This document shows, piece after piece, positions 1,003 to 16,014 of a DNA stretch of 64,000 bases; position 1 is the first letter of the stretch, and the number at the start of each line of letters is the position of its first letter. The notes under the pieces were generated by a model. The model saw only the letters and a list, made by a program, of their open reading frames with translations, made no database searches and was not told the DNA's origin. The position numbers and the translations under genes are program-made. The DNA is from an uncultured bacterium (GTDB lineage: Bacteria; Verrucomicrobiota; Kiritimatiellia; CAIKKV01; CAITUY01), in contig CAITUY010000165.1 of the NCBI GenBank assembly GCA_903895695.1, positions 1 through 64,000 on the forward strand. Reading direction: 5' to 3'.

Positions 1003-1063
1003 GATTTATCTGCACGCCAAGTAGCGCCACAGGGGCGGCGCGGGAAAAATGACAGGAGCACTC

Positions 1064-4000
1064 GTGAACACACCCAAACTCTGTTTTCGAATGGGAGAAC
1101 GCTGCGTCGCAGTACTGCTTCTGGCCGCCGGCCTGCAGGCGGGCGCTGCGGAGCGTACGCTGACCATCAAGGACTACACTTGCCGGGGATTCGCGCCGGA
1201 CCTGGTGCAGTATCGGGTTGATGGCCTGAGCGGGAGCAAAGGGGAGCGCCTGCGCCTGCTTGGCGCGGACGGCAAGAGCCTGCCCGTGCAGTGGGCGGCC
1301 GACCCCTCCGGCAAAGGCGGCCTGGCGGGCTTTGTGGCCGCCCTGCCCCACGATGAGACCGCCACCTACCGCCTGGACGATTCGGGCAGCGGCTCCGCCG
1401 CCAAGGGCGAGCTAATCGTCACGGCAGCGAAGGACCAAACCGTGCTGGCCAATGGGCTGTTCTCCGTGGCCCTGCCGGCCGCGATCGACAAGACCTATGA
1501 CCCGCCGGCCAAGGCTGACAGCCTGCCGCCCCCCATCCTCACTTTCACGAGCGGCGGCAGCAAACCGATGGGCGCCGCCAAACTTCTTACGACCCGCCCC
1601 GTTAAACGCCTGCGCGTGTGGCTGGCTGCCCGGGGACCGGTCTATGCCGATGCATGGTACGAACTGACCTGGGCCGAGGGCGGGTACTATCGCTGCCGCG
1701 TGCGCGTCATCGACGGCGTGCCGCTCGCGCAAGTGATGGAAGAATACGATCTCGGCAAACTGGACGGCACTGACTTCTGGGAACTCTCGCTCACCCAGGG
1801 CTGGCAGCCCGACCAGTTCGAAACGGCGCGCCCCTGGGGCAACGGCGGTGGCGCTGATTCCGGTTCCATCGCCGGGATTGAGTCGCTCGTGAAACAGCCG
1901 CTGTGGCGCATGAGCGTGGACAACGGGCTCCTCGGCCATCTCGGCTTCTTCCGCAAGGATCAGCGGGCGGCGGACAGCAACAATTATCCCATGGCCGGCG
2001 TCGTCATGCTGCGCAAGGGCGAGTGGCGGCGCGTGAACACCCTCGAGGTGCGCACGGCGGCGCCCGCCGATGTGCGGGTCTGCTTCCCCATGAGCGCCCG
2101 CGACACGACCTGGCAGCGTGACATCGGCTCCGTCAGCTCGCCGTTCTCCATGCACTCGCTCGATCCCGCCGTTCCGGCCACGTACGGCCGGCGGCATTGG
2201 GGCCTGATGCTCTCCCAGGTGCGCCTGCCCAGGGAGGAGACCGCCTCGGCTTCCTACGGCGGGGGCTATAAGGGACAGTACCCCTACAACACGCTGCCGC
2301 CCTTCGCCCGCGCCCGTACCCTCTATGGAGTCGTCACGCTCGACCAATACAAGGACTACATCTTGGACTGGCCCTTCGACGCTGCTCCCGCCTCCGCCGA
2401 GGCTACGGCAGGCAGGCAGGGCAGGTCCGCCGGTGAGGTGAAGTACCCGCGGCTGACCCAGGCCGGCGCATCCTGGACCAACAGCGCGGTTCCCGCGGGA
2501 CGCGACAAACAGATCCAGTTGCTTTATGACCGCTACCTGAACTGGATCCCCAACTTCTACCTGAGTTGCCCCGCGCCCACACACCATGCCACGGCCGATA
2601 ATTACACCGGCGCCTGGCTGGCCGACAGCCTCCTGGGCTCTCCCGACCTGACCCCCGCGCAGCGCCAAGACATCCGGGCGCGCCTGGCGCTGATCCTGTA
2701 TCTGCAGCACGAACCCGGCGCACTGAGTTTCGGCATCGGTTCACATCCCGGGAACCCCAACATGGGCTGGGCGCGCTTCTTTCCCGGCGTCGCCTACCTG
2801 GGCCTGCTCCCGGATCATCCCATGTATGCCAGGTGGGCCGACTTCATGAGCCGTCAGTCGGAGTACGAACTGGGCAAGGGCATGGCGCCGGGCGGGGCCT
2901 GGCTCGAATACGGCACCTATCACTTCCACGGTTTCCGCGCACTGCCGATGTTCGCCTCGCTCGACCTGGCCAAGCCGCCCAATATCGACACCCTGTTCGA
3001 TTACGCCCGCGAGGATCTCGACTACATCATGAACCTGCTCTCCGCCCCGGACCCGCGCTACCAGGCGCGCATGATCCCCGGGCTCGCCAACTCCGGCCCG
3101 AACACCACGAGCCGCCTCGTGGAAGGAGCGAACGCCCTGGACAAGAACGACCCCGAACTCGCGGCCCGGCTCCTCTGGGCCTGGAAGGAAAACGGCAGCG
3201 CGCCGGGTGCCCTTCCGGCGCCCGCGGACCTGCAACCCAAACCGGCGGATCTGACCAGCCGCTATTTCCCCGGCTTCGGCATCGTCTTCCGCGCGCACCA
3301 GGGGCCGGACGAAACATGGATGATGCTCCGCAACGGCTTCCAGTGGAGCCACTGGACCATCGATCCCGGCCATTTCGTGATGTCCAGCCGCGGGGCCGTG
3401 CTGGTGCCCTCTCAACCGTATCAATATTACGATAGCACGAACAAAACCTTCGACATGGCCAACACCGTGCGGTTCGGCGCGCCGGAGAACCAGATGCCCT
3501 ACGGCTGGCCCGACAGCAACGTGCTCGATTATTTCTTCGGCCAGTCCGTCGACTACGCTTGGAGTTCCGCGGGCGTACCGGACTGGTTCATCGATCCCGG
3601 CGTCTCCGAAGCCTTCCGCGTAGCCGCGCCGAATATTCCCAACGCCTCGGCGCGCCCGCTCGCGCCCGAGTTCAAGCAGCAACCGGGCGCCTTCCAGTGG
3701 GACCGGCAAGTGCTCTTCCTCAAGGGCAAGACGGCGACTAGCCCGAATTACTTCGTCTTCCGCGACAGCACGCGCGGTGCCCCTTCGACCCCTTCGGCAG
3801 GCTCAGGGCAGGCAGGCTCAGGGCAGGCGGGCAAACTGGCCAGTTACCTGAACTTCAACCTGCTCGGACGCAAGGCGAACCTGACGATCGAGGGCCCCCG
3901 GATCTCGCTCGATACCGAATGGCCCGTCAAACTCGAGATGCTTTTCGCCCAGTCCGAACCGCTGGCGCCGGCCCTGCTCGAGGAGAATCAGCCGTTCCAG

Positions 4001-5020
4001 TGGGCCGAAGTGAACCTGCCCCCTCGGCCGAAGGGCGAGATACCGTCGCGCGACTGGCTCAGCAACACCGGGTCCGTGTGGCGAACCGGGGCGGGCAAGC
4101 CGGCCACCGAACAGCGTGTGCTGCTACGCATTGCGGCTGCACCGGACCAGGGATATTTCTACGTGCTCTTCCCGCGGGACGAGAAGGAGCCCGTACCCGC
4201 TGTCAAGCGCCTGGCCGATGGCGTGCTGAGCATCACGCATCGCGAGGGAACCGACACGGTGTTCCTGTCGTCCCTGCCCATCAAGTACGAAGGCGGCGGC
4301 GTGCAGTTTGAAGGCTGCGCCGGCGCCGTGCGGCTGTCAGCCACTGAAATGACCCTCGCCCTGGCCGGCGGCAGCGGGCGCGTGGGCTATAAGGGAAAAG
4401 TGATCGAGGGCGCCACGCCCTTCGAGCGGCACTTCCCCCTCGCCGGCCTGGCCGCCGGGGTCGAGAAACAAAGCAGTCCCGTGAGCCACATCGCCATCCC
4501 GACCGGGGAGGCGGGCGACGAAGTTACCCCCGGCCTCCGCAAAAAGGTCGAGGGCGACGTGACCCGCTACCGCGTCCAATCCGCGCTGCCGGTGCTGGCC
4601 CAGGCCGGCGCCGTTCAAGTGGAAGCCTGCAATGCCGCCATCGAGGTAGCGACGAACCGCGTGCGCTTCGTGGTCCCGGACCGGAGTTACGTGCGCCTGA
4701 GCGTGGCCGGAGTCGGCGTGCGCGGGCTGGGTCCCTTTGACCTGACCTTCACGCCCACCAACATCACGGGGACCGTGGACGGCACGCTGCGCACGCTCGT
4801 GAGCACGTGGCCCGAGAAGATCGTCCGCCCCATGTTCCACCTGGACGATCGTCTCTGGTATGCCGGCTGGGCCGACGATCCCTGCATCAGCAAAACGCCG
4901 GACCGTCCCCAGTTCGCGATCGCCTTCGCCGTCTTCGAGGGATCCCACAAAGTGGAGGTCGGCGACTGGAAATTCCCGGCCCAGCCCCCCGTGCCGCCGG
5001 TGGCCAAGGCTGGGTTCTAG
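1064..5020 (+). CDS. Very large secreted heparinase II/III-like protein (putative polysaccharide lyase)
   Basis: The protein has about 1318 residues. I prefer GTG 1064, which has AGGAG 6 nt upstream and gives the signal peptide MNTPKLCFRMGERCVAVLLL...QAGAA; ATG 1049 is the alternative. Residues ~30-330 look like beta-sandwich modules and ~480-720 like an alpha/alpha toroid (for example GGAWLEYGTYHFHGF). From ~735 a heparinase II/III-like beta domain follows: YFPGFGIVFRAHQG, then NGFQWSHWTIDPGHFVMSSR. A paralogue with the same order lies at 42650-46024. The likely role is cleavage of uronic-acid polysaccharide outside the cytoplasm; substrate unknown. It lies among toxin-antitoxin genes and contains two short in-frame repeat insertions. 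Confidence 0.7.
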   Translation: MNTPKLCFRMGERCVAVLLLAAGLQAGAAERTLTIKDYTCRGFAPDLVQYRVDGLSGSKGERLRLLGADGKSLPVQWAADPSGKGGLAGFVAALPHDETATYRLDDSGSGSAAKGELIVTAAKDQTVLANGLFSVALPAAIDKTYDPPAKADSLPPPILTFTSGGSKPMGAAKLLTTRPVKRLRVWLAARGPVYADAWYELTWAEGGYYRCRVRVIDGVPLAQVMEEYDLGKLDGTDFWELSLTQGWQPDQFETARPWGNGGGADSGSIAGIESLVKQPLWRMSVDNGLLGHLGFFRKDQRAADSNNYPMAGVVMLRKGEWRRVNTLEVRTAAPADVRVCFPMSARDTTWQRDIGSVSSPFSMHSLDPAVPATYGRRHWGLMLSQVRLPREETASASYGGGYKGQYPYNTLPPFARARTLYGVVTLDQYKDYILDWPFDAAPASAEATAGRQGRSAGEVKYPRLTQAGASWTNSAVPAGRDKQIQLLYDRYLNWIPNFYLSCPAPTHHATADNYTGAWLADSLLGSPDLTPAQRQDIRARLALILYLQHEPGALSFGIGSHPGNPNMGWARFFPGVAYLGLLPDHPMYARWADFMSRQSEYELGKGMAPGGAWLEYGTYHFHGFRALPMFASLDLAKPPNIDTLFDYAREDLDYIMNLLSAPDPRYQARMIPGLANSGPNTTSRLVEGANALDKNDPELAARLLWAWKENGSAPGALPAPADLQPKPADLTSRYFPGFGIVFRAHQGPDETWMMLRNGFQWSHWTIDPGHFVMSSRGAVLVPSQPYQYYDSTNKTFDMANTVRFGAPENQMPYGWPDSNVLDYFFGQSVDYAWSSAGVPDWFIDPGVSEAFRVAAPNIPNASARPLAPEFKQQPGAFQWDRQVLFLKGKTATSPNYFVFRDSTRGAPSTPSAGSGQAGSGQAGKLASYLNFNLLGRKANLTIEGPRISLDTEWPVKLEMLFAQSEPLAPALLEENQPFQWAEVNLPPRPKGEIPSRDWLSNTGSVWRTGAGKPATEQRVLLRIAAAPDQGYFYVLFPRDEKEPVPAVKRLADGVLSITHREGTDTVFLSSLPIKYEGGGVQFEGCAGAVRLSATEMTLALAGGSGRVGYKGKVIEGATPFERHFPLAGLAAGVEKQSSPVSHIAIPTGEAGDEVTPGLRKKVEGDVTRYRVQSALPVLAQAGAVQVEACNAAIEVATNRVRFVVPDRSYVRLSVAGVGVRGLGPFDLTFTPTNITGTVDGTLRTLVSTWPEKIVRPMFHLDDRLWYAGWADDPCISKTPDRPQFAIAFAVFEGSHKVEVGDWKFPAQPPVPPVAKAGF
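2391..2425. repeat. In-frame repeat insertion inside the heparinase-like gene
   Basis: A 35-bp stretch beginning CCTCCGCCGAGGCTACGGCA and followed by repeated GGCAGGCAGG is translated as SAEATAGRQGR. This low-complexity peptide interrupts the link between two domains (around residues 443-454). It resembles a common GC-rich bacterial interspersed repeat normally found between genes. Confidence 0.5.
3781..3828. repeat. In-frame tandem repeat insertion (SGQAGSGQAG) in the heparinase-like gene
   Basis: The DNA contains GGCTCAGGGCAG twice in tandem after CCCTTCGACCCCTTCGGC. It encodes PSTPSAGSGQAGSGQAG at about residues 907-923, between FRDSTRGA and KLASYLNFN. The reverse complement contains CCTGCCCTGAGCCTGC, the core found in intergenic modules at 904-915 and 48435-48484. 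The paralogue at 42650-46024 has no such insert after its equivalent LRDTV segment. Confidence 0.65.
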
Positions 5021-5858: not shown

Positions 5859-6392
5859 TCACCCCTGGACACGCCGCGTGGCACGGTAACGCGATGGCGA
5901 CTCCCGGACGACGCCGGGCCCGGTCTGATCGCCGCCGCGCCGCCGGTGCAGGTCACGTACGTCCACGGCACGTAGTCCTTGCGCCTTGGCGGCCGCAAGT
6001 TGCCGCTCGTCGGCCGAGACGAGGACCGAGCAGCCCCATTGAATGGCGATCGCCACGTGGATCAGGTCCAGCGTGCGACAGCCTGTCTTCGCCGTTAATC
6101 GCTCGCCGATGGTTCGGGCTTGATCGAGGGCCTTGATCCAGTTTGCCGGACGAAGGACTAGCCGACCGCGCTTCAAGTCCTCTCCCACGTCCGCGAGGAT
6201 CCGGGTCAGTCGCTCCCCATCGACCTCGCCCCGGAACATCTTCTGTCGCATGGCATTCTCCAGTTCCAGCCTCTGGAACTGGTTTAATGGGATCGGCTCC
6301 GCGCGACCTGCGACCCAGGCATTGATCGTGGAACTGTACGCCTCCTCAATGTAGAGGGGCACGAGCGTCCCCGTGTCGTAGTAGGCGTCCAT
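5859..6392 (-). CDS. PIN-domain ribonuclease toxin (VapC-like)
   Basis: The 177-residue protein begins at ATG 6392 (MDAYYDTGTLVPLYIEEAYS). The first acidic residue of a PIN site is the Asp in YYDTGTLVPLY. A second acidic cluster is QRLELENAM, and TGCRTLDLIHVAIAIQWGCS then VLVSADERQLAAA supply the later Asp residues. PIN toxins cut RNA using these metal-binding acids. ATG and the antitoxin's TGA share one base (TGATG), so the two are coupled. The last 25 residues (GGDQTGPGVVRESP...) are low-complexity and may be a read-out tail. The frame is open further upstream but that part overlaps the antitoxin. Confidence 0.85.
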   Translation of the reverse strand: MDAYYDTGTLVPLYIEEAYSSTINAWVAGRAEPIPLNQFQRLELENAMRQKMFRGEVDGERLTRILADVGEDLKRGRLVLRPANWIKALDQARTIGERLTAKTGCRTLDLIHVAIAIQWGCSVLVSADERQLAAAKAQGLRAVDVRDLHRRRGGDQTGPGVVRESPSRYRATRRVQG

Positions 6393-6649
6393 CAACGGTC
6401 TCCGCGCGACTCGTACACGATCTCGGACGTGGGCTTTCCTGGCGCCATCTTTCCGCCCCAAAGACGCTTGCGTCGTTCGCCCACCGCCGCCCAGTCGACC
6501 TTGCGCCCGGCCAATGCGGCACCGCCGCCGGCCACCAAACGCGCCACGACCTTATTACGGCGGCGGATCTCGATCTCCTCACCCTGCTCAACCCGGCGCA
6601 CAAAGGCCGCCAGATTGTGCTGCACCTCACGAATTGTCGCCGATTCCAT
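6392..6649 (-). CDS. Phd/YefM-family antitoxin
   Basis: The 85-residue protein MESATIREVQHNLAAFVRRV...GEEIEIRRRNKVVARLV has the Phd/YefM pattern: an N-terminal DNA-binding fold with 'REV..NL..F...V..GE.I.I.RR.K.VA.LV'. A variable C-terminal tail (KVDWAAVGERRKRLWGGKM...) would wrap the PIN toxin. It is the first gene of the pair and overlaps the toxin start by one base. Antitoxins of this type usually repress their own operon. Confidence 0.85.
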   Translation of the reverse strand: MESATIREVQHNLAAFVRRVEQGEEIEIRRRNKVVARLVAGGGAALAGRKVDWAAVGERRKRLWGGKMAPGKPTSEIVYESRGDR

Positions 6650-6895
6650 CTTTCGACCTCCGGCTCTCTAATGCCGCACATATTGCAGCACAAACGGCCC
6701 AAGCCGGCAAGCGCAAAGCCCTCGAGAACTTGGTGGCCTTCGCGGCGAATGCGCCCCTCGCCGGTCAACAACTGCAATCGTGCCCGTATTGGGCGAACAC
6801 CAATAGTCAAGGGTTCGCCCCAGTCGCAAACCCAGTCGCAGAAAGGGTTGGCCCCAGTCGCCAAACTCTGGAGCGTCAGTAGTCCCTCTTTCGTA

Positions 6896-6941
6896 TTGAC
6901 CATGACGGCTATCGCGTCCAGTATAGCACATCAAATACTGG
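6896..6941 (+). promoter_or_regulatory. Candidate promoter/operator before the XRE-helicase-methylase operon
   Basis: CCAGTAT (6918-6924) and ATACTGG (6935-6941) form a perfect 7-bp inverted repeat with a 10-bp spacer, ending 16 bp before the XRE regulator ATG at 6957. TTGACC at 6896-6901 could be a -35 box, with the left arm covering the -10 position. The geometry fits autoregulation by a dimeric HTH protein. On the other strand TGCTATACT reads like an extended -10 box. Confidence 0.4.
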
Positions 6942-6956
6942 GTGTTTCATCGTATC

Positions 6957-7205
6957 ATGCCTTTAGCCACACAGAAGCCGGACGTTCCTGCCTTGGTAAA
7001 ATCCCTCCGGACGCGCCTGGGCATGACTCAAGAGCAGTTCGCCAAGGAAGTCGGTGTCACGTTCAGCACGATCAACCAGTGGGAGAACGGGCACCGCCGT
7101 CCGCAACCTTTCCTGCTGAAACACCTCGTCGATCTCAATCTGAAGGCAACGGCACAGCAACGACACGCCCGAGCCACCCCGTCTTCACGGGGGGTGGGCA
7201 AGTGA
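6957..7205 (+). CDS. XRE-family HTH regulator of the helicase/methylase operon
   Basis: The 82-residue protein from ATG 6957 (MPLATQKPDVPALVKSLRTR) contains a Cro/CI helix-turn-helix at about residues 13-55: LRTRLGMTQEQFAKEVGV, then TFSTINQWENGHRRP. A GTG at 6942 is an alternative start but sits next to the predicted operator. Its stop overlaps the GTG start of the helicase gene by 4 bp (GTGA, 7202-7205), so the two are translationally coupled. Small XRE proteins in front of restriction-modification operons usually control timing so that methylation precedes attack. That role is inferred from position. Confidence 0.85.
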   Translation: MPLATQKPDVPALVKSLRTRLGMTQEQFAKEVGVTFSTINQWENGHRRPQPFLLKHLVDLNLKATAQQRHARATPSSRGVGK

Positions 7206-10200
7206 ACACCAAGTTCTTCACAAACGATCAGGCGAACACCCTGCTGAACAAGTTCGCCGGCATCTTCGCGCACAACCCGGATATCGAGTTTTTCGACGCG
7301 CTGGTCGGGTACTTGCGTGCATCCGGTTATTTCGCTTTGCGGCCGCATCTCGATCACGTGCCGAAGATCCGCATTCTCGTGGGTATTGACGTGGATGCGT
7401 TCCTCGTCCGTCAACACCGCAAGGGGTTGCTCCACCTGGCCGACGCCGACAAGACGCTTGCCGAAATCCGTGCCGCGCTACGTCAGGACATCCAGTCTGC
7501 TCCCTACCAACAAGAGGTCGAGGCCGGCATCCTGCAGTTCGTCAAAGACGTTGCCTCCCGCCGTATCGAGATCCGCGCGCACCCTACGAAGCGCCTGCAC
7601 GCAAAAATCTATGTCTTTCGCCCGAAGGGTTTCTGCGAGCACAAGCCTGGGGCCGTCATTACCGGGTCCTCCAACCTCACGGCCGCCGGTCTGGGCACTG
7701 AGGACGCGAGCCGAAATTACGAGTTCAACGTCCTTTTGCACGATTATCGAGACGTCAAATTTGCCGCGGATGAGTTCCAAAGACTCTGGGACGAAGGCGT
7801 CGAGGTGCTGCCGCAGGCGGTGACGGGCATTGTGCAGGAGAGTTACCTTAGGGACGATTTGACCCCGTTTGAGCTATACATCAAGTTCCTGATCGAATTC
7901 TTTGGCCCGGCCATTGAGTACGACCCCAACGCCGAATCGGATCTCCCGAAGAACATCAAGCGGCTGGCGTACCAGAGTGATGCCGTGACGGACGGCTGGC
8001 TAAAACTCCAGAAGCACGGCGGGTTCTTCCTGGCTGATGTCGTGGGGCTGGGCAAGACCATCGTCGCGGCTCGCATCGCGAAGAAGTTCTATTACCACAA
8101 CGGGTTCCCCGTCCACCGGTCCCGCATCCTGGTCATCACTCCGCCCGCCATTCGCGAGAACTGGGAGGACGCCCTGGATCTGTTTGGTTTGGACGACTGC
8201 ACCAAGGTGCTGAATAACGGCAGCCTGCACAAAGTGCGCGATCCCGAAAAATACGACCTTGTGATCGTCGACGAGGCCCACAAGTTTCGGAACGATACCG
8301 CCGGCGGCTATGACCTGCTCCAGAAGTTGTGCAAGACGCCGACGAAACGCCGGCTTCCCGACGGGTCATTCGCCCCAAAACGGGTCATTCTGGTGTCGGC
8401 AACGCCGCTCAACAACCGGCCTGAAGACATCCGGAATCTCGTGCTCCTTTTCCAGGACGGAAAGGACAGTACGGTTATCGGCAACCTCCAGCATTTCTTT
8501 GCCCAACGGATCAAGGAATACGCCACCGCGAGGAAGATTCCGGACCATCGCGAAGCCAAACGGGCCGTGGCCGGCATCTACGAATCCATTCGGGAGAAGG
8601 TCGTTCAGCCGCTCACGGTGCGCCGCACGCGCACGGACCTGGCCAAAGACCACCGTTACAAGGCGGACTTGGACGCCCAGGGCATTCGGTTCCCTCATGT
8701 CGAGAAACCGCGCCCCATCTTCTACCGTCTCGACGAAGAACTCGATGCGCTCTACGACCGCACCATCGGCCTGTTGGCTGGCCTCAACGGCGACGGCCTG
8801 ACCTACAACCGGTATCGCGCCATAGCCTATCTCCGTCCTGACTTGAAGGCGCGGTACCAGAATGCGGATCTGATCTCAGCTCAATTGGCGCACATTATGA
8901 AGACGCTGCTGGTCAAGCGCATCGACAGCAGTTTCTGCGCATTCACCAGCAGCCTGCGCAACTTTCGAGACGCCAACGAGGCCATGCGTCGCATGTTCGA
9001 CCGTGGTGCAATCTATATTGCCCCCAACTTGAACGTCTCGGACTACATCCTCGACGATCGCGAGGATGAACTTATCGCGGCCATTGAGACCGCCCGCGAG
9101 ACCGACCCCACGATCCAGGTGTGCGAACCGGCCGACTTCTTGAAGGGTTTCCGCGAAGGCATTGAGCACGATGCGGCCATCCTTGAGGATCTCGCAACCG
9201 AGTGGGGCGCGATCAAGCGCGACCCCAAACTGGATGAGTTCCTCGTTCGTCTGCGGGACGAATTGCTTGATGGCGCCGTGAACGAAACCGGCAAGCTGGT
9301 CGTGTTCTCCGAGGCGCGCGACACTACCGAGTATCTCGCCGGTGAACTGAATCGCCGGGGGCACGGCCCCGTCCTCATCGTGGATTCCCACACCCGCAAG
9401 GCGCGTATGCCCGATGTGCGGGCCAATTTCGACGCCAATGTCCCGGTTACCGAACGCAAGGATGAGTTCCGGATCCTGCTTTCCACGGAAGTGCTTGCTG
9501 AAGGTGTCAACCTCCACCGGGCGCACGTGATTGTGAATTACGATACGCCGTGGAATTCCACGCGCCTTATGCAGCGCATCGGCCGCGTGAACCGCATCGG
9601 GTCCACCGCCAAAGCCATCCACATCTTCAATTTCTACCCGACGGCGCAGGTTGATTCCGACATAGACTTGAAGCGCAAGGCATTCCTGAAATTGCAGGCG
9701 TTCCACTCCGCGCTGGGGGAGGACAGTCAGATCTACTCGCCGGATGAGGACGTCAATTCGTTTGGCCTCTTCGATAAGGAGATTGAAGAGGAGAGGGACG
9801 AGCGACTCGCCTTCCTGACCGAACTCCGGGATTTCAAGGACCATGCCCCGGACGAGTTCCGCCGAATCCGGAGTCTGCCCATCCGTGCCCGCTGCGGGCG
9901 CCGCAACCCAACGACCGCCGGTCATTCATTGGTGTTCATCCGCAACGACCGTCGTGATGCGTTCTACGGGATCAATGGCCAGATCGACGAGATGAGTTTC
10001 GTCGAGATGGCACGCGCGTTCCGCGCCGAGCCGACCGAGCAGTCTGTCCCCCTCCACGACGCGCACCATAACCATGTCCTTGCCGCGTTGGAGGATTTTC
10101 AGACCAAGCAGGAAGCCGACGCGGTGCGCGAAAGGGCCGTAGACCACACCCTTGGCCCTAATGAGCAAAAGGCAATCCGCCTGCTTGCGGCGGCGCAGTC

Positions 10201-10576
10201 TATGCCGAACATTTCGGTCGACGAGCGCGCACTATTCCTCGCCGCACAGCATGCCGTCAGACTCGCCCGTTTTCAGGATTTACCCAGGAAGATCAACGCT
10301 CTTCAGCGCGCGGTGGCCAAGACGCGTGTCACGACAGCCGTCTATCTCGACAAGTTGGCGGAGATCGTCCGGTCATATCCCCTGATCGTCGACGAGCCCG
10401 CGATTCGCCCGCCCGAGCAACTCGAACTCCCGGGTTCCTTTTTGCCCGACATCATCCTCTCGGAGTCGTTCTCCGCCTCCGCCAATGGCGACACGGGTTT
10501 GCCCTTGCGGGCCATCGCGGCCGCGGTTACGGTGACGAGCACGCTGCCCCATGCTGAGCAGGAGGATACTCGGTGA
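7202..10576 (+). CDS. PLD-like nuclease / SNF2-family helicase fusion
   Basis: The protein has 1124 residues from GTG 7202; the frame is open upstream to 6617, but that part overlaps the XRE gene and shows no domain. Residues ~20-240 form a phospholipase D-like domain with one HKD-type motif: H133-A-K135 (LHAKIYVF) and GSSNLTAAGL near 160. A SNF2 helicase core follows: Walker A LADVVGLGKT with K285, Walker B VDEAH with D357, motif III LVSATPLNN, and helicase C ending in QRIGRVNRIGS. PLD nucleases normally need two HKD motifs, often by dimerising. It overlaps the methyltransferase start by 4 bp. The likely role is ATP-driven translocation on foreign DNA with PLD-mediated cleavage or binding. 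DISARM DrmD (SNF2) is the nearest comparison by context only. Confidence 0.85.
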   Translation: MNTKFFTNDQANTLLNKFAGIFAHNPDIEFFDALVGYLRASGYFALRPHLDHVPKIRILVGIDVDAFLVRQHRKGLLHLADADKTLAEIRAALRQDIQSAPYQQEVEAGILQFVKDVASRRIEIRAHPTKRLHAKIYVFRPKGFCEHKPGAVITGSSNLTAAGLGTEDASRNYEFNVLLHDYRDVKFAADEFQRLWDEGVEVLPQAVTGIVQESYLRDDLTPFELYIKFLIEFFGPAIEYDPNAESDLPKNIKRLAYQSDAVTDGWLKLQKHGGFFLADVVGLGKTIVAARIAKKFYYHNGFPVHRSRILVITPPAIRENWEDALDLFGLDDCTKVLNNGSLHKVRDPEKYDLVIVDEAHKFRNDTAGGYDLLQKLCKTPTKRRLPDGSFAPKRVILVSATPLNNRPEDIRNLVLLFQDGKDSTVIGNLQHFFAQRIKEYATARKIPDHREAKRAVAGIYESIREKVVQPLTVRRTRTDLAKDHRYKADLDAQGIRFPHVEKPRPIFYRLDEELDALYDRTIGLLAGLNGDGLTYNRYRAIAYLRPDLKARYQNADLISAQLAHIMKTLLVKRIDSSFCAFTSSLRNFRDANEAMRRMFDRGAIYIAPNLNVSDYILDDREDELIAAIETARETDPTIQVCEPADFLKGFREGIEHDAAILEDLATEWGAIKRDPKLDEFLVRLRDELLDGAVNETGKLVVFSEARDTTEYLAGELNRRGHGPVLIVDSHTRKARMPDVRANFDANVPVTERKDEFRILLSTEVLAEGVNLHRAHVIVNYDTPWNSTRLMQRIGRVNRIGSTAKAIHIFNFYPTAQVDSDIDLKRKAFLKLQAFHSALGEDSQIYSPDEDVNSFGLFDKEIEEERDERLAFLTELRDFKDHAPDEFRRIRSLPIRARCGRRNPTTAGHSLVFIRNDRRDAFYGINGQIDEMSFVEMARAFRAEPTEQSVPLHDAHHNHVLAALEDFQTKQEADAVRERAVDHTLGPNEQKAIRLLAAAQSMPNISVDERALFLAAQHAVRLARFQDLPRKINALQRAVAKTRVTTAVYLDKLAEIVRSYPLIVDEPAIRPPEQLELPGSFLPDIILSESFSASANGDTGLPLRAIAAAVTVTSTLPHAEQEDTR

Positions 10577-13500
10577 ATCCTATCTTCCTCCAAACACAAC
10601 TCCAACTCCCTTACCGCCGGAAGACGTGGCAGACGCTGCTTCCCCAGATCATCCCCGGCGTGGAGTTATTCACACAAGCCGTCGAAATGCCCCTGACCAC
10701 AGAGGCCCAGCGCGCGCTTGCCACGGGTTTGCGCCAGATCGGTCGCGCCGTCCTGCGCGACGAGATTGGAAACGAGCGTATCGTCGCGATTTTTGAGGCG
10801 GACGTCGTCCCGGGCGTCGATGTGGTTCGCAACCGGGTCGCCCTCCGCCAACTGGTGAGTCGGTGCATTGACGAAGTCAGTGCCCACGCCGTCCTGGCCT
10901 ACTTTGTCCAACCCGGTGCGTCCGCCTACCGGCTGACCTACGCCGCCAAGGAAAGCATCCACCGTGAGGATCTCTCGGTCGAGACGACGGAGACCGCGAC
11001 CAAGCGTTATACCTATGTACTCGGCCCCGGTGAAGCACGTCGAACCGCCGCCCAGCGCCTCGCCGGCCTGGCGGCGAACCGCGACACAAAGAAGTGGAAG
11101 GATGTCGCCGACGCTTTCTCCGTCGAAAAGCTCAACGATGAGTTCTTCAAGACCTACAAGGAACACTACCAGGCGTTCTGCAAACACTTGCTTAACTCCA
11201 CAGCGACGGCGGTTGTGTTCGACCTGAAACTACGCGGCCTGAAGGACAAGGAACTCGACAAAGCCCTGAAGCCCGTCCGGGATTTCGTCAAGAAACTGCT
11301 CGGCCGCCTGGTCTTTCTGCATTTCATCCAAAAGAAGCAATGGCTCGGGTGCCCGGCCGACCGCACCGACTGGACTCAGGGCGACCCCACATTTATCCAA
11401 ACGTGGTTCGCCAGGACAACCGGCCGTGACCGGTTCTACCGCGATTTCCTGGTTCCGCTGTTTTACGATGCGCTGAACAACAATGGGCGGGACAGGAGCC
11501 TTTTCGCCCCTACGGGTACTCGGGTACCGTACCTGAACGGCGGACTCTTTGAACGCGAGTTGGTTCCCGGATCTGGCCACAAGCCGCTGGAAGTGGAGAA
11601 ATTGGATCTGCCCGATGTCCTCTTCGCCGGTCTTCTCGAATTTCTGAGCCAGTACAACTTCACCATCGACGAAAACGATCCGGACGATCATGAAATCGGC
11701 ATCGATCCCGAGATGCTCGGCCATATCTTCGAGAACCTGCTGGAGGACAACAAAGATAAGGGCGCCTATTACACGCCCAAAGCCATCGTCCAGTATATGT
11801 GCCAGCAGAGTCTGATCCACTATCTCCAAGGCCATTTTCGTCCCGATGGAGGGACGACCTCCGTGTCGTCCGTGGACGCGACGGAGCGCGTCCCTCCAAC
11901 AGAGGCGGAAGCCGCGATCGAACGCCTCATCCGTCTCAAGGAGCCCATTGACCCGCGAGACGCTCGGAGTTGGCTGACGATTCACGCGCATCGGCTGGAG
12001 GAACTGCTGGATGACGTGAAGATCTGTGATCCGGCCATCGGCTCCGGCGCGTTTCCCATCGGCCTGCTGCAGGAGATCTACTGGACCCGACTGACACTGC
12101 ACCCAGGGCTTGAACGCGCCAAGGCCAAACGGGACATCATTCAGAAATCCATTCACGGCGTGGATCTTGACGCAGGTGCCGTTGAAATCGCCCGGCTCCG
12201 GTGTTGGTTGGCCCTGATTGTGGAGGAGGATCAACCCCGGCCGCTCCCGAACCTTGATTTCAAAATCATGCAGGGCGATTCTCTTCTAGAGAGTTTCGAG
12301 GGTATTCCGCTGGACCAGTTGATGCCATCTGTGCGTCCCTTGTACGAGCGCGCGGTGCAGCAAAAGGAACTCGATCTTGGGCCGGTGGTGCGCGAAAAAC
12401 TCCAACTTGAGTTGAGCGAAGAGGACAGACTGCGGTTCGCGAAATTGCTCGGCGACTATTTCCCATGCGAGGATCCCGCAGAGAAGTCCCGGCTTCACAT
12501 CGAAATCGATACATTCGTCCTCAAACACATCGATTACAACGTGGACCAGTTCCTGCGCAGGGAAGAGGCGGAACTGGCCCAGCTTCAACACGGTATTGAT
12601 GAGAAACGCAAGACGGCGAAGAAATACGAACTTTCCCCGCGCGAGAAACGCCGCATCAAAGCCCTGGAGGCAGATATTCGTGCTAACCGTGCTCGAAAGG
12701 CGAAGTTGCACGGCTTGGCTGACATCCCGGAGCGCCCCTATTTCCTCTGGCACCTTTTCTTCCAGGATGTGTTCGTCCGCGGAGGCTTCGACATCGTAAT
12801 CGCCAATCCCCCGTTTGTTCTCTTGCAGGAAGGTCGTGTTACGGAAGAGGAGTCTGTTCGATTTAGGAGTCTTTACCGAGTGGCGGCCTTCAAGTTGGAT
12901 CTCTACCACCTTTTCATCGAACGAGGAACAACCCTAGCGGCGGCGAATGGCGTCATCTGTTACATAACGCCAGCCAATTTTCTTACGAACAATTACGCCA
13001 TGCGATTACGACGCTTCCTTGCTGAAGTGACCGCCATCCAAGAGGTCATTGTGTACGATGACGACGTCTTTGCTGCGAGCGTCAACAATGTGACATTCCT
13101 CTTGAATAGAGGGATAACGAGTTCCCCTTTGATCCGTTTTCGTCGAGGACGGCTCAAGAACGGGGATCTTCGCCTTGCAGAGGCTGGCTCGTTCCCTCAG
13201 AAGGATGTAGTATCACCTCACTACTTGCTGACACCGCCAGCATTGGGTTCAAGTCGAGACCTTGCCTCAAAGATCGCGGATTCCGCTGATGAATTAGGCG
13301 GGATGGCACGAGTTTGTTTTGGAATGCAGTTGCGCGATCGGTCGAAGCATACACGCGACGTGCTGGAGGCTGTCGCGCAACCTGAAAGACTCTCCGCCGA
13401 CTATCGCCAATGCATCAGTGGCCGCGACATCGGCCGTTACTGCCTCAAGTATGTGCCGAGATACTGCTATTTCAACCGCATCGCGAAGAGGGGCGGGTGT

Positions 13501-14667
13501 TGGGATGAGGCCCTTCATCTCGCAAAAAACAAGATTGTTCTGCGGCAAATTGGCTTGTATCCCGAAGGTGCCCTCGATACGAAAGGAATCCCCGTTTTGA
13601 ATACGGCCTTCATGGTCGTTCCCAATGAACCGTCACTCGCTTTCCCGATAATGGCGATTTTGAATTCAAAAGTAATACGGTATTTTTGGCAGACTCGGTT
13701 TCGCGATGATCGCAAGACCTTCCCCAAGATTAAAGGTGAGTATCTTAAGGAATTACCCATTCCTATCGCTTGCCCAGAGGTCCAGACCCAGTTGGCAGCA
13801 CTTGTCGCACAGGCTTGTGCTACCGCCGGCTTGGAACTGGCGGAGATCGAGGAGAAGATCAACCAGATTGTATACCGGCTTTTCAAACTTGAACCTGACG
13901 AGATTGCGCTGATCGAGGGCGCTACCGCGTCAACGAAACCGGCGCTGGACAACAAGTCGGCCCTTTTCACCCGCATTCTGCCGGAACTCTCCGCCGCCGC
14001 GCCGTACTTCTCGCACAACGCGATCACGAAGCGGTTGGCCGACCTCACGATCGAGATGGCCGATCATTCGTTGCGCGTATATTTGAGCGAGGCCATGGAG
14101 AAAGGCATCGTCCATGACGCCGGCCGGGGTTGGTACTCGCGACTGGCGGATCGTTGCGTGTTGGATCCAAAACCGGTCGCCAAACTCATCCATCAACTGG
14201 AGAAGAAATTTCCGCTCCTGGATTTCACCTGCTGGTCCACCCAGCAGGTCAACCCCTGGATGCACCACATCCTGTCCAAGTTCCTGACCTTCGTGAACGT
14301 GGACCCGGATGGTCTGCTGGCCGTTGCGGAATTTCTGCGTGCCGAAGGGTACGAGGTCAACGCCAACCCCAAAGGCAACCGAACGGCCGAAGTCAGGGCC
14401 AATGGCAAGACTGTGATTATCCGTCCCCTCAACACCCATGCGCCGAAGGAAGGCCACTTCGCTCCCCCCGAGGCGGTGCTTGTTGATTTGTTCAAGGAGA
14501 ACTTGGCCCTGACGATCATGGATGCGGCCGATTTCAAGGGGATGGCCCAGCAATTGGCCGCCACGAACAGGTTGTTGTGGGCGGCCCTGAGTCATTACGC
14601 GGATAAGAGGGGTATTGCGATAGGTGAGTTGTTCGCGCAGGTCAATGTACTAACGGCAAAATTATGA
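10573..14667 (+). CDS. Eco57I-like adenine DNA methyltransferase with an AbiEi/DUF6577-like C-terminal domain
   Basis: The protein has 1364 residues from GTG 10573, with AGGAGG 8 nt upstream. A long N-terminal region (VEKLNDEFFKTYKEHYQAF) precedes the N6-adenine methylase core. Motif I is D486-PAIGSGAF and motif IV is N745-PPF. A TaqI/Eco57I-like target-recognition part covers ~840-1110, including KTFPKIKGEYLKELPIP. From ~1126 there is an extra ~240-residue domain: a winged-helix-like part (YFSHNAITKRLADLT), then HDAGRGWYS, FPLLDFTCWSTQQVNPW and VIIRPLNTHAPKEGHFAPPE. This matches the AbiEi-like/DUF6577 antitoxins that normally stand alone beside AbiEii toxins, and an AbiEii gene is next downstream. 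No PD-(D/E)XK motif was noticed at the N-terminus. Residues ~425-442 come from a palindromic DNA insert. Confidence 0.85.
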   Translation: MNPIFLQTQLQLPYRRKTWQTLLPQIIPGVELFTQAVEMPLTTEAQRALATGLRQIGRAVLRDEIGNERIVAIFEADVVPGVDVVRNRVALRQLVSRCIDEVSAHAVLAYFVQPGASAYRLTYAAKESIHREDLSVETTETATKRYTYVLGPGEARRTAAQRLAGLAANRDTKKWKDVADAFSVEKLNDEFFKTYKEHYQAFCKHLLNSTATAVVFDLKLRGLKDKELDKALKPVRDFVKKLLGRLVFLHFIQKKQWLGCPADRTDWTQGDPTFIQTWFARTTGRDRFYRDFLVPLFYDALNNNGRDRSLFAPTGTRVPYLNGGLFERELVPGSGHKPLEVEKLDLPDVLFAGLLEFLSQYNFTIDENDPDDHEIGIDPEMLGHIFENLLEDNKDKGAYYTPKAIVQYMCQQSLIHYLQGHFRPDGGTTSVSSVDATERVPPTEAEAAIERLIRLKEPIDPRDARSWLTIHAHRLEELLDDVKICDPAIGSGAFPIGLLQEIYWTRLTLHPGLERAKAKRDIIQKSIHGVDLDAGAVEIARLRCWLALIVEEDQPRPLPNLDFKIMQGDSLLESFEGIPLDQLMPSVRPLYERAVQQKELDLGPVVREKLQLELSEEDRLRFAKLLGDYFPCEDPAEKSRLHIEIDTFVLKHIDYNVDQFLRREEAELAQLQHGIDEKRKTAKKYELSPREKRRIKALEADIRANRARKAKLHGLADIPERPYFLWHLFFQDVFVRGGFDIVIANPPFVLLQEGRVTEEESVRFRSLYRVAAFKLDLYHLFIERGTTLAAANGVICYITPANFLTNNYAMRLRRFLAEVTAIQEVIVYDDDVFAASVNNVTFLLNRGITSSPLIRFRRGRLKNGDLRLAEAGSFPQKDVVSPHYLLTPPALGSSRDLASKIADSADELGGMARVCFGMQLRDRSKHTRDVLEAVAQPERLSADYRQCISGRDIGRYCLKYVPRYCYFNRIAKRGGCWDEALHLAKNKIVLRQIGLYPEGALDTKGIPVLNTAFMVVPNEPSLAFPIMAILNSKVIRYFWQTRFRDDRKTFPKIKGEYLKELPIPIACPEVQTQLAALVAQACATAGLELAEIEEKINQIVYRLFKLEPDEIALIEGATASTKPALDNKSALFTRILPELSAAAPYFSHNAITKRLADLTIEMADHSLRVYLSEAMEKGIVHDAGRGWYSRLADRCVLDPKPVAKLIHQLEKKFPLLDFTCWSTQQVNPWMHHILSKFLTFVNVDPDGLLAVAEFLRAEGYEVNANPKGNRTAEVRANGKTVIIRPLNTHAPKEGHFAPPEAVLVDLFKENLALTIMDAADFKGMAQQLAATNRLLWAALSHYADKRGIAIGELFAQVNVLTAKL
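11847..11898. repeat. In-frame palindromic insert in the methyltransferase gene
   Basis: Perfect 10-bp arms TGGAGGGACG (11847-11856) and CGTCCCTCCA (11889-11898) bound a 52-bp GC-rich element. It encodes the low-complexity stretch GGTTSVSSVDATERVPPT, between IHYLQGHFRPD and EAEAAIERLIRL, just before motif I. It looks like an interspersed palindrome that inserted in frame without breaking the gene. Confidence 0.6.
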
Positions 14668-14780
14668 CTAAGATGCCGATAATACATTCATTTCGTATTA
14701 ATCAAATACGCGAATTTAGTGATGCTTCTTATTCGCCTGCAAGATGTTATGAAACGTACTATTCGTAATGCTCTGGCATC
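14668..14780. promoter_or_regulatory. AT-rich gap before the AbiEii gene with a small inverted repeat
   Basis: This 113-bp gap is clearly more AT-rich than its surroundings. It contains CGTATT (14694-14699) and AATACG (14705-14710) around a 5-nt spacer, which could be an operator. It would allow the toxin gene its own promoter, separate from the fused methylase-antitoxin. No convincing -35/-10 pair could be chosen by eye. Confidence 0.3.
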
Positions 14781-15875
14781 ATGCTGACCGGGAGATGTTT
14801 AGCGCGGGAGTGGATCGCGGAGCAGAGCCGACGGCTCAAAGCCCGCGATCCGCTCTTGGTTGAGACCTGCGTTTACGCCTTTGAACTTGTGGGGCGTCTG
14901 GCCGCGACGGGTCTCGATTTCGTATTCAAGGGCGGGACCAGCCTGCTTCTCCACATCCAGCTCCCACGCCGCCTGTCCATCGATGTGGATATCGCGACCC
15001 CGGCATCGCTCGACGAAATCCAACGTGTCCTGAGAGAGGTATGCCGACCGCCGTTCGGCGCCTTCACATATCAAGATCGGCGAGACCGGGAGAACCCGCC
15101 CACCCGTCATTTTCAGATTCCCTATGACTCACCAACGCAAGGGAAGCCATGGCCCCTACAATTGGACGTACTGCTCGGCCACGTAACGTACCCGGTCATC
15201 GAGACACGCCCCATCGTTCTGGACATGTTGGATATCGAGACACCCCAGACCGTGCGTGTCCCATCGGTCGACTGCTTGTTGGGAGATAAACTTACGGCCT
15301 TCGCGCCCGAGACGATCGGCGTTCTCTACAATCCTCAACCCCGAGCCCTTGGCGGAGAGGCGCCCGATCCGAAGCCGATCCGTGTGCTGAAGCAACTTTT
15401 CGATGTGGGGGAGTTGTTTTTGATCGCTCAGGATCTTTCGACCATCGCGCAGGCGTATGACCGCCTGCATGCCGTCCAGAACGCAGCCCGTGGAGGCGCG
15501 CATCCCCGCGAGCGCTGCCTTGACGACACCCTCGACGCCGCTTACTGGATTTCCCAGGCGGACCTTCGCAAACAGGAGCATAACGACAAAACCGTATTTC
15601 TACGCCAAGGCATAAAGGCCCTGGATAGTCACGTGCTCGGTCCATCCTTCAGCATCGGCTCCGCGAAGATATTCGCTGCCCGTGCGGCACTTCTCGCGGC
15701 ACTGCTCCGAACGGGCCGACTGGGCTCACCGCTCTCAGCGCTGCGCACAATTCCCTCACCCAACGAACTGGCCACGCTCTCAATCGAAGGGCGATTCAAT
15801 CGTCTCAACCCTCTGAAGAAAACGTCCCTTGAGGCTTTCCACTACTGGCACCTCGCCGCCCAAATGGTGACGTGA
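14781..15875 (+). CDS. AbiEii/AbiGii-family nucleotidyltransferase toxin
   Basis: The 364-residue protein has the nucleotidyltransferase core: FK50-GGTSLLL, then RLSI-D68-V-D70, the GG-(S/T) and DxD metal-binding motifs of DNA polymerase beta-like enzymes. Later conserved parts are VPSVDCLLGDKLTAFAPETIG and FDVGELF. AbiEii toxins form type IV-like pairs with AbiEi antitoxins, and the related MenT toxins add nucleotides to tRNA 3' ends. No separate AbiEi gene exists here; the matching domain is fused to the methyltransferase 114 bp upstream. Length is normal for the AbiEii group that pairs with DUF6577 proteins. A 25-bp perfect hairpin follows 79 bp downstream. Confidence 0.88.
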   Translation: MLTGRCLAREWIAEQSRRLKARDPLLVETCVYAFELVGRLAATGLDFVFKGGTSLLLHIQLPRRLSIDVDIATPASLDEIQRVLREVCRPPFGAFTYQDRRDRENPPTRHFQIPYDSPTQGKPWPLQLDVLLGHVTYPVIETRPIVLDMLDIETPQTVRVPSVDCLLGDKLTAFAPETIGVLYNPQPRALGGEAPDPKPIRVLKQLFDVGELFLIAQDLSTIAQAYDRLHAVQNAARGGAHPRERCLDDTLDAAYWISQADLRKQEHNDKTVFLRQGIKALDSHVLGPSFSIGSAKIFAARAALLAALLRTGRLGSPLSALRTIPSPNELATLSIEGRFNRLNPLKKTSLEAFHYWHLAAQMVT

Positions 15876-15953
15876 GCGGACCCGCGGACTCTCACTGGAA
15901 CTGCGACACTACATTCTTTAACACCTGCCGAAACCGCTCAAGGGGGTTAATCG

Positions 15954-16014
15954 GCGCAATCAATCAACCAATGTCACATAACAGCGATTTGTGACATTGG
16001 TTGATTGATTGCGC
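15954..16014. repeat. Perfect 25-bp-arm hairpin downstream of AbiEii
   Basis: Arms at 15954-15978 (begins GCGCAATCAATCAACC) and 15990-16014 (ends TTGATTGATTGCGC) are exact reverse complements around an 11-nt loop, TAACAGCGATT. The arms contain tandem AATC units. There is no U-run, so it is not a classical terminator. It could be an RNA hairpin, a recombination site or a miniature element. The rest of the gap (15876-16173) shows nothing else. Confidence 0.7.

Follow-up and report, generated by a model that had tools for sequence, protein, structure and literature searches.

Why should the antitoxin of a toxin-antitoxin (TA) pair be built into a DNA methylase? The question is raised by a gene cluster on contig CAITUY010000165.1 (assembly GCA_903895695.1) of an uncultured bacterium of the Kiritimatiellia with a 6.3 Mb draft genome; the window that we analysed is the whole stretch of 64,000 nucleotides at positions 1 to 64,000 of this contig. 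Genes for a nuclease-like helicase, for a methylase that ends in a DUF6577/AbiEi domain and for an AbiEii toxin form, together with a small XRE-family regulator gene, one tight cluster on the + strand in which the catalytic motifs are intact. We read the locus as a restriction-modification (R-M)-like defence operon with an exchangeable TA pair whose antitoxin has been joined to the modification enzyme, which would serve addiction, a fail-safe, or both, and we give this reading a probability of roughly 0.6.

An antitoxin domain at the end of a methylase

The four-gene array reported by the first-pass annotation is present, with GTGA overlaps at 7202-7205 and 10573-10576 and the ATG of AbiEii 113 bp past the methylase stop. 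Its features are:

6957..7205, + strand: XRE-family helix-turn-helix (HTH) regulator, 82 aa (Pfam HTH_3, 6.7e-14)
7202..10576, + strand: PLD nuclease-SNF2 helicase, 1124 aa (Pfam PLDc_2, SNF2-rel_dom, Helicase_C)
10573-14667, + strand: methylase::DUF6577 fusion gene, a single 1364-aa frame (Pfam)
10573..13971, + strand: adenine methylase part, about residues 1-1133 of the fusion (Eco57I/N6_Mtase core, TaqI_C-type target recognition)
13972..14667, + strand: DUF6577/AbiEi antitoxin domain, about residues 1134-1364, C-terminal in the fusion (DUF6577, PADLOC AbiEi, model)
14668..14780, + strand: AT-rich spacer from antitoxin gene to toxin gene, 113 bp, 36% GC
14781..15875, + strand: AbiEii nucleotidyltransferase toxin, 364 aa (Pfam AbiEii, PADLOC AbiEii)
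15954-15978 / 15990-16014, no strand: perfect 25-nt inverted repeat with an 11-nt loop, between AbiEii and a convergent Mur ligase gene

The fusion proposed from the first reading is real: DUF6577, a family of unknown function in Pfam, matches residues 1167-1347 (3.5e-24), and the PADLOC AbiEi models match residues 1139-1347 (5e-23), of the same 1364-aa frame that holds the Eco57I and TaqI_C domains. A sequence-only search of the PDB with an AbiEi profile returned nothing useful. An AlphaFold2 model of residues 1075-1364 (pLDDT 90) had as its best PDB match the AbiEi of S. agalactiae (6y8q, E 2.3e-4, probability 1.00) and as its second Rv2827c; its global TM-scores were low (0.28-0.39), so that the evidence for the fold is rank and local fold and not full superposition. 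Judged from this model, the fused domain is an AbiEi antitoxin fold, that is, a winged helix followed by a C-terminal antitoxin domain, and both parts appear to be present. In AbiEi itself, repression of the operon takes the whole protein, winged helix included; for antitoxicity, the C-terminal domain is enough (PMC3985639).

The fourth protein matches Pfam AbiEii (1.4e-18) and is covered over its whole length by one PADLOC AbiEii model (1.9e-83). Its motif sequences are FKGGTS...RRLSIDVDI and KLTAF; motifs I-II (GG ... R...DxD, here of the form GGT...RLSxDxD) are unchanged in the window and 11 relatives, and the pattern was found in 95/97. A PDB search with the AbiEii profile gave one weak match in the motif region, 6y56 (E 0.13), which is given as MenT4 (PMC11375011). 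By homology, the protein would be one of the AbiEii/MenT toxins; the MenT toxins among them block translation and modify the 3' ends of tRNAs (PMC10435456, PMC11375011).

The helicase has Pfam scores of 2.3e-8 (PLDc_2), 3.3e-9 (SNF2-rel_dom) and 1.3e-16 (Helicase_C), and its motifs HAKIYV...GSSNLT, GLGKT, DEAH, SAT and QRIGRVNRIG are intact. The nuclease and the ATP-driven motor expected of an R-M system are thus predicted from motifs (PLD HxK...GSSNLT and SNF2), and we propose this protein as the putative restriction effector. The predicted N6-adenine methylase with its target recognition domain is likewise seen in the fusion, which matches Eco57I (2.9e-28) and TaqI_C (6.8e-19) and has intact DPAIGSGAF and NPPFV motifs. 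PADLOC type IIG models match the methylase N-terminus, where D63...E75 form a candidate nuclease pair without the lysine of ExK; a model of this part (pLDDT 77) had no PDB match with E < 0.001. Elsewhere in the host genome there is a second, divergent pair of PLD-SNF2 helicase and methylase genes, without AbiE (L059 5444-12596, contig C250).

Recurrence and exchange of the modules

We searched 388 Verrucomicrobiota genomes with the methylase and read the neighbourhoods of the matches; a second sample came from an AbiEii-based scan of a species-genome collection, which is the only census beyond Verrucomicrobiota and is biased to AbiE-bearing loci (genomes and loci carry G and L numbers below). 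A methylase::AbiEi fusion with AbiEii directly downstream occurs at 14 other loci, one of them (L051) cut at a contig start, so the association is more than chance. The order helicase, methylase::AbiEi, AbiEii is found in Verrucomicrobiota, Bacteroidota and proteobacterial metagenome-assembled genomes (MAGs), in at least four named groups, and the possibility that these genes are never found together elsewhere falls away with their recurrence in such distant genomes. The methylase-based search found the same gene order in G179, G235, G175 and G228 and more divergent versions in G207 and G279; G015 has the fused methylase and AbiEii on a short contig on which no helicase is visible, and G376 an unfused version of the system. 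The AbiEii-based scan added loci from MAGs of Bacteroidetes (L061), Proteobacteria (L065) and Deltaproteobacteria (L079), and three in Verrucomicrobia (L070, L073, L135); L062 is from a Verrucomicrobiaceae MAG (G235) and L089 from a Kiritimatiellae MAG (G148). Other arrangements are an unfused helicase-methylase-AbiEi-AbiEii order (L076), a permuted methylase-AbiEi-AbiEii-helicase order (L068), and AbiEi-AbiEii-helicase (L071 and L082, both cut at contig starts).

A DUF6577 model had 18 matches in the 388 Verrucomicrobiota genomes, half of them (9/18) inside fused frames of 764-1573 aa: eight methylase fusions and one HsdS fusion, the latter (L056/L089) with an HsdM-type methylase gene, then HsdS::AbiEi, then AbiEii. 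Within the close helicase clade, AbiE is present in 6/8 complete loci of the methylase-based sample. Plasmid collections yielded a single weak match to the AbiEi domain and phage collections none, and the window-type operon is in none of five loci with AbiEii in viral contigs.

The TA pair and the R-M core have each been exchanged. At L034 (genome G175), the helicase is the closest relative of that in the window (75.6% identity over its length; sister in the tree, support 100), and the methylase aligns with window residues 1-1114 and then stops, where the AbiEi domain would start; neither AbiEi nor AbiEii is there, and the space between helicase and methylase holds an Xre/MbcA/ParS antitoxin and a RES toxin. 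The same genome holds a second system (L039) in which AbiE is fused. Conversely, a Lentisphaerae locus (L060) has the closest relatives of the window's AbiEi and AbiEii (AbiEii 64% identical; antitoxin-side homology from window residue 1101), preceded by type III Res and Mod genes, and helicase codons 1-58 (60% identical) survive directly before Res. Most simply read, the helicase-methylase core gave way to a type III R-M system while the AbiE end was retained. The system is thus modular, with TA exchanged on one R-M core and R-M core exchanged on one AbiE. The AbiEi and AbiEii trees agree, and both pair the window with L060 (98 and 100). On these trees, the fused-methylase label changes 9-10 times over 12 rows, with at least 7-8 changes forced by well-supported branches, in quick trees in which some 'solo' rows are cut contigs and fusion is indistinguishable from fission.

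The slot between PLD-SNF2 helicase and methylase carries varied cargo in other loci: Fic/DOC (L053 9625-10683), DUF3800 (L043 6597-8589), a 23S_rRNA_IVP-like gene (L070 4846-5616), a YhcG/DUF1016 nuclease (L038 1903-3054) and DUF4062 with HATPase (L036 6200-7669). On a Prevotella nigrescens plasmid (L032 8263-20089), an HTH - helicase - methylase core lacks AbiE; behind it come two Eco57I methylase genes in inverted orientation and genes for an ATP-binding protein and an Mpi-family invertase, a layout that looks like phase-variable methylase specificity.

The regulator, by contrast with its place in the first-pass annotation, is not a conserved component. In L034, L035, L045, L073, L038 and L040, the small open reading frames (ORFs) checked 5' of the helicase showed no recognisable HTH, and most relatives have none upstream; HTH genes are present in the AbiE-less Prevotella core L032, the divergent L053, and L033. 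The XRE protein probably controls the operon, and helicase - MTase::AbiEi - AbiEii is the better description of the unit. Just 5' of its gene, at window positions 6809-6864, lie 22-nt direct repeats, 34 apart, with CCCAGTCGC, a possible operator. The 113-bp spacer 14668..14780 might hold a separate promoter for AbiEii, and the inverted repeat at 15954-16014, a single copy in the genome and inside the interval 6896-16014 marked at first, is possibly the shared terminator of AbiEii and the convergent Mur ligase gene; scans for consensus promoters and terminators gave matches at or below chance level.

GC content is 53-63% across the operon and 66% to its right. Since the right flank consists of housekeeping genes (Mur ligase, DUF2207, LemA, TatC) and the flanking ORFs scanned had no PADLOC match, the locus looks like an acquired operon rather than a piece of a large defence island. 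Just upstream, at window positions 5859-6649, a minus-strand PIN-domain gene and an overlapping Phd/YefM-type antitoxin gene form a separate type II TA-like pair, and a 1323-aa ORF at 1049-5020 has no Pfam or PADLOC match.

The first-pass claim that the toxin is tied to the methylase stands in part: fused-methylase loci recur, but the same AbiE family also lies beside type I, ISP, II, III and YprA/SNF2-type operons. Its partners include type I genes at L107 (HsdR-AbiE-HsdR), L121 (AbiE-HsdR-methylase) and, 334 bp away, L127 (AbiE-HsdR-HsdS::GIY-YIG-methylase), type ISP at L109, Eco57I/MmeI-type enzymes at L066 and L164, an N6_N4 methylase whose gene overlaps AbiEi at L085, and YprA-like/SNF2/methylase genes at L110. 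In L127 (14129-16003), the type I specificity subunit, in an HsdR - HsdS - methylase operon, is fused to a GIY-YIG nuclease domain. At L075 (5234-13829), an OLD/TOPRIM ATPase and a UvrD helicase (Gabija-like) directly precede AbiEi-AbiEii, and a PIF1-like helicase follows. Other copies lie among genes for cell-wall synthesis and division: FtsW - MurG - AbiE in such a cluster in Cloacimonadota (L084 245-5204); FtsW upstream and a MurC-type ligase downstream of AbiEi-AbiEii (L086 7016-12445, titled Armatimonadetes, nearly identical and perhaps mis-binned); and, again in Cloacimonadota, AbiEi-AbiEii with that ligase downstream and AbiEii split into two ORFs (L077 6088-10539).

Known parts in a seemingly new arrangement

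In line with the first reading, nothing on this combination was found in the papers searched, and no description of AbiEi fused to a methylase or to HsdS was found in the literature searched, subscription papers being outside the search. Among the PADLOC hidden Markov models, several separate ones match the parts and none covers helicase, MTase::AbiEi and AbiEii together; C3a139 (HKD+Snf2), PLD_Helicase, HmaA and REase_MTase_IIG match partially (helicase 90-126 bits, methylase up to 268). The cut-off of the NCBIfam phospholipase D anti-phage protein was missed (126 of 1100 bits).

The closest published core is that of the Type-2 BREX-related systems, which likewise have an N-terminal HKD/PLD nuclease on a Swi2/Snf2 helicase, with an N6 methylase (PMC12839542), but are organised around a DUF499 ATPase, which DUF3780 usually accompanies (PMC12839542). 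DUF499 has no match in the whole host genome, and we therefore rejected membership of the DUF499-type BREX-related systems; no DUF3780 was seen in the operon, no search aimed at it having been made. BREX itself was rejected on PglX (62 of 500 bits required). HEPN, PIN, Schlafen and OLD proteins are described as backup effectors beside BREX-like loci, with AbiE unmentioned (PMC12839542). Class 1 DISARM also has an SNF2 helicase (DrmD-like) adjoining an Eco57I-like methylase, but the DrmD profile reached 160 of the 610 bits required, and neither DrmD nor DrmMI came up to equivalog level. DISARM was rejected since no DrmA, DrmB or DrmC was found in the neighbouring genes scanned, which agrees with the absence of the drmA/B/C core noted at first.

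The TA end resembles AbiE type IV TA systems and their MenAT relatives in having an AbiEii-family toxin with motifs I-II and an AbiEi-fold antitoxin directly upstream; here, however, the antitoxin is the C-terminal domain of a methylase, whereas AbiE systems make it as a separate protein from an operon of two genes. EcoprrI-PrrC and other R-M guardians share the linkage of a translation-blocking toxin to an R-M enzyme expected to silence it (PMC2610378, PMC12707154). PrrC differs in being an anticodon nuclease without a separate antitoxin; the analogy is functional only and we claim no homology. We read the locus as an R-M-like system with integrated TA, made of known kinds of parts in a seemingly new arrangement.

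Addiction, guarding and other possible uses of the weld

From this anatomy we infer the activities that follow, namely methylation, restriction, toxicity, neutralisation and any phage trigger. The Eco57I-type methylase would mark host DNA through its own target-recognition domain and so protect it, and the PLD-SNF2 protein, driven by ATP, would restrict unmodified DNA. Restraint of the toxin, which the first reading placed in the methylase, would come, by homology, from the AbiEi domain, which would silence AbiEii as long as the methylase polypeptide is made. Were the methylase lost through gene loss, truncation or replacement, or the AbiEi domain disabled, AbiEii would halt growth, by homology to MenT through modification of tRNA 3' ends. 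Since the two are welded together, the cell would have as much antitoxin as it has methylase, so that loss or replacement of the methylase becomes costly; survival would be bound to keeping it (addiction), and the same wiring could act as a fail-safe against anti-restriction.

Several observations weigh against this reading. The mechanism of AbiEi antitoxicity is unsettled in the literature, and the toxin deviates from the published consensus in motif III (KLxAaxxR), where it retains KLTAF but not the Arg, and in motif IV (+DxxD), where KQLFD retains only the K and the last D. AbiEi is a separate protein in L060, L042, L068 and L076; fusion is thus not universal and not required. Furthermore, AbiEi and AbiEii of this family often stand alone, many Bacteroidota copies being solitary, and occur in non-defence operons (FtsW-MurG-AbiE-MurC in Cloacimonadota), so that an independent selfish TA may merely join operons.

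In the most probable of the rival readings, AbiE stabilises the locus without a role in immunity and the fusion simply makes the methylase part of the addiction. In L060 the AbiE end outlasted a change of R-M core, and one core can carry TA pairs of different types (L034); AbiE is able to stabilise plasmids (PMC3985639) and also occurs in housekeeping operons. Yet the strong bias towards R-M partners and the repeated fusion to a modification or specificity subunit exceed the needs of a generic stabiliser, and we rate addiction alone as less likely than not.

A PrrC-like guardian is rather unlikely in our judgement: here, a phage anti-restriction protein or DNA mimic would bind the methylase, disturb AbiEi and free AbiEii, with abortive infection as the outcome. 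It has a precedent in EcoprrI, which silences PrrC and whose inhibition by T4 Stp activates PrrC (PMC2610378; PMC12707154), and in two R-M types the antitoxin is joined to the subunit that recognises DNA, in one type a methylase that carries its own recognition domain and in the other HsdS. But it has no known trigger, and AbiEi is also unfused beside R-M genes in many loci, and stand-alone. The swaps favour a locus-level role independent of any one enzyme and agree with addiction no less than with sensing, which is why we hold phage-triggered release to be doubtful. Our confidences in these readings overlap because one and the same wiring could serve addiction and guarding alike.

That the AbiEi domain persists chiefly to bind DNA and repress its own operon, with AbiEii its accessory, seems improbable: AbiEi proteins do use the winged helix to repress the promoter from which they are made (PMC3985639), and the modelled window domain appears to retain a winged-helix-like part, but every intact fusion has AbiEii after it, and of the two halves the C-terminal antitoxin domain is better conserved. 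Chance packing of unrelated R-M and AbiE genes, or MAG mis-assembly, we regard as very improbable, for although nearly all fused loci come from MAGs or draft genomes and AbiE is often solitary, the 1364-aa frame is uninterrupted, independent fused homologues occur in many assemblies, short overlaps recur, and the right flank of the window is housekeeping and not a defence island.

As a tentative generalisation of the welded R-M-TA reading, R-M operons may have a general, exchangeable slot for a TA guard, of which an antitoxin welded to methylase or HsdS would be the most integrated form; inhibition, displacement or loss of that subunit through a phage or competing element would then itself free a tRNA-modifying toxin.

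How R-M systems escape loss or switch-off, and why TA genes cluster with them, are long-standing questions. At this locus, a single polypeptide unites R-M and TA, and natural loci form matched pairs, one core with two TAs and one TA with two R-M types, so that simple genetic tests can tell addiction from guarding directly. Since the antitoxin is already tethered to a DNA-binding enzyme, the weld is also a way into the unsolved mechanism of AbiEi antitoxicity. If the reading is true, defence-finding tools would report as several unrelated systems what is one.

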